From Fusobacterium varium (GTDB lineage Bacteria > Fusobacteriota > Fusobacteriia > Fusobacteriales > Fusobacteriaceae): a stretch of 64,000 bases of DNA. Location of the stretch: NCBI GenBank assembly GCA_002356455.1, contig AP017968.1, forward strand, positions 3,720,001 to 3,784,000. The letters are read 5' to 3'. The notes beneath the pieces are model-generated. The model was not told the DNA's origin. It searched no databases and was given only the letters and a program-made list of their open reading frames with translations. The translations under genes were made by a program, and so were the position numbers. Positions within the stretch are counted from its first letter, which is position 1; every line of letters starts with the position of its first letter. Of the stretch, positions 53,989-57,257 are shown piece by piece.

Positions 53989-54017
53989 TTGACAATCTCT
54001 TTTCCAAGTTATATAAT
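53989..54017 (+). promoter_or_regulatory. Consensus promoter of the amino-acid operon leader
   Basis: TTGACA (53989-53994) and TATAAT (54012-54017) are exactly 17 nt apart, a perfect match to the housekeeping consensus. Transcription would start near 54024. Confidence 0.92.
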
Positions 54018-54053
54018 CACTTCAATAAAATAAATTATTAGAAGGAGAAAAAA

Positions 54054-54128
54054 ATGTTATTTAAGAATCTAAGGAGTATGCCACAATTAAATATTTCAAA
54101 CATATTCCTGTATAAAAGGATTCTTTAA
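54054..54128 (+). CDS. 24-aa leader peptide candidate
   Basis: An ATG 7-8 nt after a strong AGAAGGAG ribosome-binding site opens a 24-codon frame ending in TAA. The peptide has five Leu and three Ile but no long run of a single amino acid. Its coding sequence overlaps the first arms of both alternative stems. Translation is supported by the ribosome-binding site; a control role is inferred. Confidence 0.55.
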   Translation: MLFKNLRSMPQLNISNIFLYKRIL

Positions 54129-54209
54129 TATGGCATTATTCATGATATAATATATTTTTCAAAGATGGGGTTAATGTCCCCTGAGTATATTTTATGAATT
54201 TGTTTGTTG

Positions 54210-54245
54210 AAGTACTGATTCTTTTTAGGAATCAGTACTTTTTTT
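54210..54245 (+). terminator. Strong terminator between the leader and the binding-protein gene
   Basis: A perfect 12-bp stem (AAGTACTGATTC with GAATCAGTACTT) with a 7-nt loop is followed by seven T. No promoter is visible between it and the ATG at 54282, so downstream genes depend on read-through. Confidence 0.92.
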
Positions 54246-54281
54246 AATTTTAATTATTAATAAAACATGGAGGGAAAACTT

Positions 54282-55022
54282 ATGAAAAAACTTTTTAAAT
54301 TATTTATGTTATCTGCACTATTATTACTAGCTGCTGCCTGCGGAACTTCTAAAACTGGACAGCCAAAAGAGGATAAAGTCTATGTAATAGGAACTAACGC
54401 TGAATATCCACCTTTTGAATATTTAGAAAATGATCAGGTATGTGGTTTAGATGCTGACATCATTTCTGCAATAGCTCAAAAATTAAATATACAGTATAAG
54501 TGGTCTAATACAAATTTTGATGGACTTATTCCTGCACTTCAGACAAAAAAAATGGATGCTGTAATAGCTGGAATGAGTATCACTCCTGAAAGAGCAAAAG
54601 CTGTTAATTTCTCTATCCCTTATCTTTCATCTAATGTAGCTTTTATAGCAAATAAAAATAAACCTATTAATGGAATAGAAGATTTGGAAAATAAAAACTA
54701 TGGTGCTGAACTTGGAACTACAAAAGAAGCTGCTGCAAGAAAAGTAAAAGGTGCAACTGTAACTCCTTTTTCTTCTAATACTGGTGCTCTTGTTGCTTTA
54801 AAAAGTGGAAAAATAGATGGAATTGTCCTTGATGAAAGTGTAGCTGTAAAATTTGTAGAGAATAATCCTGAACTTATGCTTGTAGGAACTCTTGAAGGGG
54901 AGCCTAAAGCTATTGCTTTCAATAAAGATGATACAGAACTTATGGAAAAATTCAATAAAGCTCTTCAAGAACTTATTGATGATGGAACTATTCAAAAATT
55001 AAGAGAAAAATATGGTGTATAA
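54282..55022 (+). CDS. Amino-acid-binding lipoprotein (SBP family 3), orphan
   Basis: From the ATG at 54282 the product is 246 aa; an ATG at 54267 is not preferred because GGAGGG lies just before the chosen one. The signal peptide ends in a lipobox (LLAAAC). The domain has GTNAEYPPFEYLE, FDGLIPALQTKKMDAV, GMSITPERAKAVNFS and a final LREKYG, typical of polar amino-acid binding proteins. No permease or ATPase gene lies in the operon, so it must borrow a transporter encoded elsewhere. It is first of three genes after the attenuator-like leader. Confidence 0.92.
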   Translation: MKKLFKLFMLSALLLLAAACGTSKTGQPKEDKVYVIGTNAEYPPFEYLENDQVCGLDADIISAIAQKLNIQYKWSNTNFDGLIPALQTKKMDAVIAGMSITPERAKAVNFSIPYLSSNVAFIANKNKPINGIEDLENKNYGAELGTTKEAAARKVKGATVTPFSSNTGALVALKSGKIDGIVLDESVAVKFVENNPELMLVGTLEGEPKAIAFNKDDTELMEKFNKALQELIDDGTIQKLREKYGV

Positions 55023-55034
55023 TGGGGGCAATTT

Positions 55035-56096
55035 ATGTTTGAAAATTTTTCATTCACTTCTTATTTCATAGATAAAAGTATATGGAAATATCTAAAAAAT
55101 GAAATTATATTATATAATAACATTCTCATAATAACTGGAGAAAATTCTTTTAACAGTATAGAAGAAAAGATTTTTCCCTTACTTGATGGGAAAAAATATT
55201 CAATTGAAAAATATAATGGTGAATGTTCCTATGAACATGTTGATAAAATATTGGAAAATTCACTAAATAAAAAATTTGATCTTATTTTAGGAATAGGTGG
55301 AGGAAAAGCTATAGATACAGCAAAGATAGCAGCATTCAAATTAGGGATAGATATATTTACTATCCCTACTATTGCTTCTACCTGTTCAGCTACATCTGCT
55401 TTATCTGTTGTATATAATAATAATGGAAGTTTTAAGGAATTTTTTGATTTTCCTTATCCTCCTAAAAAAACTTTTATAGATTTAGAAACTATAAAAACAG
55501 CTCCTGAAAAATATATCTGGGCTGGTATGGGAGATACACTTGCCAAATTTTATGAGGTTAGAATGAAATATGAATATGTTTTCAAGAAAAATAATGGCAA
55601 GATGAGTTATCCAAATACTTTAGGAAAAGAAATAAGTCATCTCTGCGGCTCTGTGATACTTGAAAATGGTATCTCGGCTTACCTTAATGAAAATATCAAC
55701 GAAGAGTTTAAAAAAGTGGTTCTTGCCATAATAGTAAATACTGGAATGGTTTCTAATTTGGTAGAAGAATTTCTCAATGGAGCTATTGCTCATTCTGTTT
55801 TTTATGGTCTTACTTTACTTCCTTCACTGGAAAATGAACATCTTCATGGAGAAGTGGTGGCATTTGGTATACTTGTTCAACTCCTGCTTGAAGGAAAAAA
55901 AGAAGAATTTGGACAGCTTCTCCCTTTTTACAAGAAATTATCTTTTCCAACAACATTATTAGAAATAGTAAAAAAAGAGGAATTTGAAGAGATGGAAGAT
56001 AAAGTCCTCTGGGCTATTTTGACAGGACCTGATATAATAGATATGGAATTTAATATAAATAAAGAAAATTTAAGAAAAACACTTTTTTCATTGTAG
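55035..56096 (+). CDS. Iron-containing alcohol dehydrogenase, HcxA/GldA-like
   Basis: This 353-aa protein has the GldA-type fold: LGIGGGKAIDTAKIAA for NAD(P), TIASTCSATSALSV, and metal ligands Asp in GMGDTLAK, His in GAIAHSVFYG and His in NEHLHGEVVAFG. In E. coli HcxA (YbdH) is of this group and reduces 2-oxo acids, and its gene neighbours the aminotransferase gene ybdL. Here an aminotransferase gene follows after 9 nt. A 2-oxo-acid reductase is therefore more likely than glycerol dehydrogenase. The start lies 12 nt after the binding-protein stop. Confidence 0.85.
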   Translation: MFENFSFTSYFIDKSIWKYLKNEIILYNNILIITGENSFNSIEEKIFPLLDGKKYSIEKYNGECSYEHVDKILENSLNKKFDLILGIGGGKAIDTAKIAAFKLGIDIFTIPTIASTCSATSALSVVYNNNGSFKEFFDFPYPPKKTFIDLETIKTAPEKYIWAGMGDTLAKFYEVRMKYEYVFKKNNGKMSYPNTLGKEISHLCGSVILENGISAYLNENINEEFKKVVLAIIVNTGMVSNLVEEFLNGAIAHSVFYGLTLLPSLENEHLHGEVVAFGILVQLLLEGKKEEFGQLLPFYKKLSFPTTLLEIVKKEEFEEMEDKVLWAILTGPDIIDMEFNINKENLRKTLFSL

Positions 56097-56105
56097 GGGG
56101 CAAAA

Positions 56106-57257
56106 ATGAAAAGTTTTATTGCAGATAAATTTAAGGAAAGAAATTATTCTATGGGAAATAAAAAAGGGTCTGAAAGCTGTTCTCTTCCTCTTATTAATCT
56201 TGGAATAGGAGATTTGGATATACATACTGATGAACATTTAATTGAACTGGCTATGATTGATGCTAAAAAAGGGCATACCCATTATACTGATTCATATGGA
56301 TATCTTGAATTAAGAGAAGAGATATGCAAATATCACAAAGAAAATTTTAAAAATTATGAATTTTCTCCTAAAGATATCATGATAACTACTGGAGCTTGTC
56401 ATGCTCTTTATCTTACATTTAAAAGTATTTTAAATAAAGATGAAGAGGTTATTCTTCTTGCACCATTTTTTCCAGTGTATGCTGATCAGATAAAGTTATC
56501 TGATGGAGTTCCCATAATTGTAGAAACAAAAATTGAAAATAATTTTCAAATTGTAAAAGAAGACTTGGAAAAAGCTATAACTCCAAAAACGAAATGTATA
56601 GTTGTAAACTCTCCATCTAATCCTACTGGTGTTTGCTACAGTATGGAAAGTATGAGTATTATCAAAGAAATTTCTGAAAAATATGACCTTTTAGTTATTG
56701 CTGATGATGTTTATGATTTTTATTCATATGAAAAAACTTTTATTCCAATCATCACTTTAGAAGGAATGAAAAAAAGAACTGTATCTGTGTGTAGTTTTTC
56801 TAAGAATTTTGCTATGACAGGTTGGAGAATTGGTTATGTTATATCTCAAGTTCCTGAGCTTATAAGCTGTATCAATTATATAAATGAATCTATTATCTAT
56901 AGTGCACCTTCTATATCACAGAGATGTGCTATTCATGCTCTTAAAGATTTTAAGAAGCAAAAAAAGGCTCTTGTTCCTGTGTTTAAAGAAAGAGTTGATT
57001 ACTGCTATGACAGAGTAAAAAAAATACCTTTCCTTGATTGTTTTAAAGCACAGGGAGGGATATATTTATTTCTTAATATAGAAAAAACTGGAATGACTTC
57101 TGAAGAATTTACAGATTTTCTTTTAGAAAAATGCAATATAATAGTTGTAAATGGTACTCCTTTTGGAGTAAAGGGATTTGTAAGAATAGCTTGTACTCTT
57201 GAAATATCAAAACTTGCAGAAGCTTTTGACAGAATAGAAAATATGATATCTTTATAA
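56106..57257 (+). CDS. Class I/II PLP-dependent aminotransferase (YbdL/aspartate-aminotransferase-like)
   Basis: This 383-aa enzyme has LINLGIGDLDIHTDE, TTGACHALYLTFKSIL, NSPSNPTGVCYSM, ADDVYDFYSYE and the PLP lysine in SFSKNFAMTGWRIGYV. It swaps an amino group between an amino acid and a 2-oxo acid. It follows the dehydrogenase by 9 nt, and together they could turn an imported amino acid into a 2-hydroxy acid while reoxidising NADH. The preferred amino acid is not clear; the ybdH/ybdL analogy points to methionine, which is inference. Confidence 0.9.
   Translation: MKSFIADKFKERNYSMGNKKGSESCSLPLINLGIGDLDIHTDEHLIELAMIDAKKGHTHYTDSYGYLELREEICKYHKENFKNYEFSPKDIMITTGACHALYLTFKSILNKDEEVILLAPFFPVYADQIKLSDGVPIIVETKIENNFQIVKEDLEKAITPKTKCIVVNSPSNPTGVCYSMESMSIIKEISEKYDLLVIADDVYDFYSYEKTFIPIITLEGMKKRTVSVCSFSKNFAMTGWRIGYVISQVPELISCINYINESIIYSAPSISQRCAIHALKDFKKQKKALVPVFKERVDYCYDRVKKIPFLDCFKAQGGIYLFLNIEKTGMTSEEFTDFLLEKCNIIVVNGTPFGVKGFVRIACTLEISKLAEAFDRIENMISL

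Follow-up and report, generated by a model that had tools for sequence, protein, structure and literature searches.

A candidate ribosome-mediated attenuator with conserved Leu-Arg codons ahead of a binding-protein operon in Fusobacterium varium

The leader and the operon it precedes

The window analyzed here, a stretch of 64,000 nucleotides from Fusobacterium varium, carries on its plus strand a three-gene operon preceded by a leader with its own promoter. The first gene (54282..55022) encodes a family 3 amino-acid substrate-binding protein (PF00497, 1.9e-42) and is followed by the genes for an iron-containing alcohol dehydrogenase (Fe-ADH) of the glycerol-dehydrogenase-like kind (55035..56096, PF00465) and for a PRK06348-like class I/II aminotransferase (56106..57257; PF00155; NF004975 at 5.8e-135, which is below the cut-off). 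The binding protein is an orphan, in that the operon contains neither a permease nor an ATPase. Its best NCBIfam model is that of Lys/Arg/Orn-binding proteins, with a score under that model's cut-off, and its nearest described relatives are of the Lys/Arg/Orn and Gln/Arg types, none of them over the curated cut-off. Distant relatives of the Fe-ADH in Firmicutes showed no shared gene context. In genome G001, the translated match of the Fe-ADH gene (L080 / L068, G001:C1:2914514-2915359) contains three stops, an interruption that may be a frameshift or an assembly error.

The original prediction had claimed for 53989-54282 a perfect promoter, a strong terminator and, between them, an ORF of 24 codons with its ribosome-binding site, and direct reading found all of them in place. 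The promoter (53989..54017) has the −35 element TTGACA at 53989-53994 and the −10 element TATAAT at 54012-54017, separated by a spacer of 17 nt. The Shine-Dalgarno sequence AGAAGGAG (54040..54047) precedes the leader ORF MLFKNLRSMPQLNISNIFLYKRIL, which comprises 24 codons and a TAA (54054..54128); its codons 6 and 7, CTA AGG (Leu-Arg, 54069..54074), are the candidate stall codons. The intrinsic terminator (54209..54245, −17.8 kcal/mol) is built of a 5′ arm at 54209-54223, a loop at 54224-54226, a 3′ arm at 54227-54241 and a T-tract that ends at 54245, as predicted 37 nt short of the ATG at 54282. Inspection by eye of these 37 nt revealed no second promoter, in agreement with the same prediction. 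The two copies of GATTCTTT on which its pairing scheme was based were verified by direct reading at 54119-54126 and 54217-54224, as was the AAGAATC site at 54063-54069; ATGCCA lies at 54078-54083 and TGGCAT at 54131-54136.

The leader ORF also contains a Shine-Dalgarno-like UAAGGAG (54070-54076), which is strongly conserved, in the relatives too, and is masked in the hairpin described below by an anti-Shine-Dalgarno-like AUUCCU; it might slow ribosomes on the codons just after it. A second translation start at this site was considered and rejected because no start codon follows at a suitable spacing.

Conservation and early codons of the leader peptide

A profile of the leader peptide matched 11 of the 96 genomes of the order (E ≤ 3.7e-8, the next best match being at 0.003). 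These genomes belong to three genera and are exactly those found to have the linked operon; the leader is present in each as a single copy, always ahead of the linked binding-protein and Fe-ADH genes. The ORF is open, in frame and preceded by a Shine-Dalgarno-like site in all 11, and the arrangement of promoter, ORF and terminator is retained in them although the upstream neighbors differ. The conservation among relatives on which the original prediction turned is thus borne out for the ORF. Three congeners have leaders 89-91% identical to that of the window. In two others, G010 and G011, the operon lies elsewhere on the chromosome, after a gene for a MATE-type transporter, and the leader keeps its promoter, ORF and terminator with a diverged sequence. 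Five genomes in two other genera (G076, G030, G072 and G073; G023) also have both leader and operon. In the genomes of genus g4, the genes for Fe-ADH and binding protein stand in separate contexts, and the peptide profile search of the 96 genomes found no such leader there. The orthologous binding protein of that genus (L113-L118) is encoded directly 3′ of a MetQ-like binding protein, away from Fe-ADH. A search with a DNA pattern for further TAAGGAR...AATT copies returned matches at background level.

The leader peptides begin MLFKNLRSMPQLN, MFMMVLRNIKKLN, MLLRGLRNILKLN, MLRYLRRSNLQLN, MLRHLRRSNLQLN, MKLRSLRSILKFN and MKLRNLRSILNFN. They share an Arg-containing core, LR[SNR]..[KQN][LF]N, and diverge between lineages in their C-terminal half. 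Relatives carry a tandem Leu-Arg motif (KLRSLRS, KLRNLRS, LRYLRR, LRHLRR, LLRGLRN), of which the FKNLRS of the window leader is a decayed form, its first Leu-Arg-x unit having become TTT AAG AAT (54060-54068). The macrolide-type +X+ stall motif was looked for and set aside, the leader sequences having [KR]xLR instead.

Codons 2-12 are enriched in only two residues, with 11 Arg against 1.9 expected (p × 20 = 4.6e-5) and 20 Leu against 5.6 expected (p × 20 = 7.4e-6), an excess not seen in the remainder of the ORF. Arg is mostly encoded by the rare AGG, which accounts for 9% of the Arg codons in the window and for 2 of the 94 counted in the g8 loci, and the Arg codon shared by all relatives, that of the candidate Leu-Arg stall pair, is always AGG. 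The choice of AGG alone proves nothing because this codon also forms part of the apical helix of the hairpin P1 described below. The first Leu-Arg unit, on the other hand, is retained with differing codons (CTA AGG, TTA AGA), which argues that selection is on the amino acid.

These counts raise the question of which amino acid would be sensed. The same attenuator might respond to leucine, or to leucine and arginine jointly, and this is the strongest of the alternatives, although we consider it unlikely. It draws on the large number of Leu codons, on the rarity of CTA (6% of Leu codons) and on the lack of a leuC match in a search of six g1 genomes, which may therefore have to import leucine. 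However, the larger fold enrichment belongs to Arg, the Leu-Arg motif also heads an operon of the arginine synthesis gene argG, and a third leader (MLRRLRNRL), before a paralog of the binding protein, has four Arg in codons 3-8. Since argG was over the cut-off in 10 of 11 genomes (g1 and others) and leuC is missing from the six, auxotrophy does not decide between arginine and leucine. Three points count against arginine: Leu matches Arg in enrichment, the leader of the window genome itself has a single Arg among its early codons, and there is no evident reason for arginine control of an aminotransferase and a dehydrogenase.

Folding of the leader RNA and a modeled switch

Compared with dinucleotide shuffles, the predicted fold of the leader (about 220 nt) is more stable by 3.8 sd (z −3.8). 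Much of the ORF is predicted to fold into a hairpin, P1 (54053..54137, z about −3.5), whose helices pair 54053-54060 with 54130-54137, 54063-54070 with 54118-54125 and 54072-54080 with 54101-54109. P1 alone gave z scores of −3.4 to −4.4 in six congeneric leaders. All 25 of its pairs are unchanged in four close species, the loop being variable, and P1 shows no covariation among them because it does not vary there. By sequence inspection, its apical helix (of the AGGAGUAU:AUAUUCCU type) is kept in other lineages, and two double changes are present in it in G030 and G072 (GGAGCAA:UUGUUCC). A P1 consensus over lineages computed with MAFFT and RNAalifold was uninformative, with the 3′ arms misaligned. 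Between ORF and terminator lies a second hairpin, P2 (54138..54199). P2 and the terminator vary among the four close species with pairing mostly preserved, including double changes from G-C to A-U at the P2 pair 54170/54178 and from T-A to C-G at the terminator pair 54213/54237 (in G002). Across lineages, the terminator hairpin persists while the sequence of its outer stem is lineage specific.

The antiterminator drawn in the original prediction, in which AAGAATC pairs with the terminator copy of GATTCTTT, did not hold up, as its duplex energies are near the shuffle median, no better than those of shuffled arms, and the pairing is not conserved beyond the four close species. Similarly, the ATGCCA/TGGCAT pairing is present in the window leader and absent outside these species. 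The broader claim of attenuation by leader ORF and terminator is well supported by conservation; the drawn antiterminator is at chance level. Modeling suggests that the antiterminator is probably formed instead by the last codons of the ORF, region 2 (AAAAGGATTCTTT, 54114..54126), whose alternative partners are region 1, within P1, and the 5′ arm of the terminator at 54209-54212 and 54217-54225.

In this model, the RNA 3′ of a ribosome with AGG in its A site was folded up to the terminator loop. Under such occlusion, pairing between region 2 and the 5′ arm of the terminator (2:3) is predicted in five of six lineages, namely in the window genome, G001, G002, G010, G076, G030, G072 and G073, with Fisher p values over the six lineages of 6e-4 against region-2 shuffles and 0.016 against arm shuffles. 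In the window leader and those of G010, G030, G072 and G073, 2:3 pairing is strong while an early codon occupies the A site and falls to little or nothing without a ribosome or with a late one; it remains substantial as far as about codon 11 in the window leader, codon 9 in G010, codon 10 in G030 and codon 5 in G073. G076 forms 2:3 even without a ribosome, and in G023 it is weak and unclear. The switch score compared with ORF shuffles gave a combined p of 6e-5, and the switch was broadly similar with three ribosome footprints. All these p values are optimistic, because the models are equilibrium models and the choice of region 2 and of the test codons came after the folds had been seen. An earlier scan, which used partial masks for the ribosome and counted all pairing of the arm together, found no switch; one appeared only once pairing partners were resolved individually. 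Being rich in A/U and much weaker than the terminator, the 2:3 helix would have to win kinetically.

The analysis shows the elements of the leader, the extent to which they are conserved, the excess of Arg and Leu codons and a switch in the thermodynamic model; stalling, the amino acid sensed and read-through are inferred. We suggest with a probability of about 0.7 that the leader attenuates transcription in the trp/his manner, through a ribosome that responds to charged tRNA-Arg, possibly tRNA-Leu. RNA polymerase would initiate at about 54024, and a ribosome would enter the leader ORF. With charged tRNA-Arg (possibly tRNA-Leu) plentiful, the ribosome would clear the Leu-Arg codons, the ORF would refold as P1 (1:2), the terminator (3:4) would form and transcription would stop at about 54245. 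With charged tRNA scarce, the ribosome would stall at CTA AGG and cover region 1, region 2 would pair with region 3 (the terminator 5′ arm) with P2 as a bridge, and transcription would proceed into the genes for binding protein, dehydrogenase and aminotransferase.

Parallel leaders and known systems

Similar leaders precede other operons. In nine genomes, a binding-protein/argG operon has its own promoter, leader ORF and terminator (L177, G000:C1:1020300-1022300, minus strand; also L159, L160, L151, L172-L175 and L178), with the peptide consensus ML..L.LRNRKY (more broadly ML..L.LR[NS]R[KR]); codons 8 and 10 are AGG in most. When the model places a ribosome on these AGG codons, nucleotides 61-75 of the ORF pair with the terminator arm in all lineages, a pairing that most of them lose without a ribosome or past codon 12 (p = 9e-5 and 0.0035); in G072, it is gone by codon 7 of the ribosome scan. 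The argG leader is thus, on modeling, a candidate arginine attenuator. Another leader with a terminator, MLRRLRNRLKVNSNYMFLKESLWIN (in the window genome, G000:C1:2153591-2153665, L180, minus strand), with four Arg in codons 3-8, precedes a paralog of the binding protein (55% identical) followed by an alanine racemase-like gene, with orthologs in G002 and G007. A further one, MKVITVLKNTLHHHHHR (G000:C1:1705337-1705387, L191-L196, minus strand), reads MKV...HHHHHR, is likewise followed by a terminator and precedes a binding-protein operon with permease-like and ATPase-like ORFs; its His run is conserved in six congeneric genomes, and by its sequence it is a textbook histidine attenuator. The simple model gave no clean 2:3 pairing for the binding-protein/racemase and His-operon leaders. 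These examples indicate that the genus uses leaders of the kind known from ribosome-mediated attenuation, and where gene function is known, Leu-Arg leaders accompany arginine genes.

These leaders bear on the possibility that the leader under study forms a gene of its own, for a small RNA or a peptide, with the operon living on unregulated leak-through. The strong terminator and weak antiterminator would fit such an arrangement. However, the leader is single copy and always immediately 5′ of the same operon, analogous leaders stand ahead of argG and the His transporter, and the predicted switch exceeds shuffles, so that we regard this as improbable.

It is slightly less probable still that the nascent leader peptide together with a metabolite, such as arginine or ornithine, arrests the ribosome in the manner of SpeFL or TnaC. 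The conserved ORF with its Arg-containing core speaks for an arrest peptide, but region 2 is freed in the model by stalling at codons up to about 11, where the peptide is too short for the usual arrest motif, and the C-terminal half varies between lineages. In the Salmonella speF leader orf34 (SpeFL), ribosome pausing at rare Arg codons (AGG CGG) reports arginine (PMC6386406). The present leader likewise has an ORF with rare Arg codons, but speF acts via Rho termination, RNase G and speF translation, whereas the present leader would act via an intrinsic terminator, and a Pfam search of seven leader peptides found no match to the SpeFL family (DUF2618).

A riboswitch with an uncharacterized aptamer and an incidental ORF is very improbable: the leader fold is significant, and P1 and P2 are conserved in four species, but no Rfam family matched the leader at gathering score, as the original prediction had it, comparison of the 11 leaders found no aptamer-like sequence outside the ORF conserved between genera, and the ORF is intact throughout with recurring Leu-Arg codons.

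Between a ligand-sensing RNA and ribosome position, both left open by that prediction, the sequence comparison supports ribosome position, because relatives have tandem Leu-Arg and no aptamer-like sequence outside the ORF.

Classical ribosome-mediated attenuators are those of trp, his, leu, thr and phe in enterobacteria and of trp and leuS in Actinobacteria (PMC1262725). The present leader resembles them in its promoter, short ORF with candidate regulatory codons near the 5′ end, predicted alternative 1:2, 2:3 and 3:4 helices and intrinsic terminator before the first gene. It differs in its Arg (or Leu) codons without a long run, in its A/U-rich, weak proposed antiterminator, in its occurrence in Fusobacteriota and in its operon of orphan binding protein, Fe-ADH and aminotransferase. 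As an attenuator, it is a further case of this established type and not a new kind. The arginine and leucine T-boxes of Firmicutes also sense tRNA charging before amino-acid operons, but the leader, in line with the original prediction, has no T-box at gathering score and none among Rfam matches to E 10. A 2008 survey lists no T-boxes in its Fusobacteria/Thermotogae genomes (PMC2494555). A search of the open-access literature turned up neither a case of attenuation by a leader peptide in Fusobacteria nor an attenuator for arginine that works through an intrinsic terminator, the nearest being Salmonella speF orf34; these negatives are weak evidence because most subscription papers were outside the search scope.

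We give about even odds to an arginine regulon in Fusobacteriaceae made up of paralogous ribosome-mediated attenuators with intrinsic terminators, ahead of argG, the binding-protein/racemase-like genes and the present operon. Such a regulon would mean arginine-specific attenuators in a phylum in which T-boxes appear scarce. The paralogous leaders and the His leader make the attenuator idea directly testable. If it is true, trp/his-type attenuation would be placed in Fusobacteriota, gut and oral anaerobes would have a simple, readable arginine sensor, and an arginine-linked role would be indicated for the operon of binding protein, Fe-ADH and aminotransferase.
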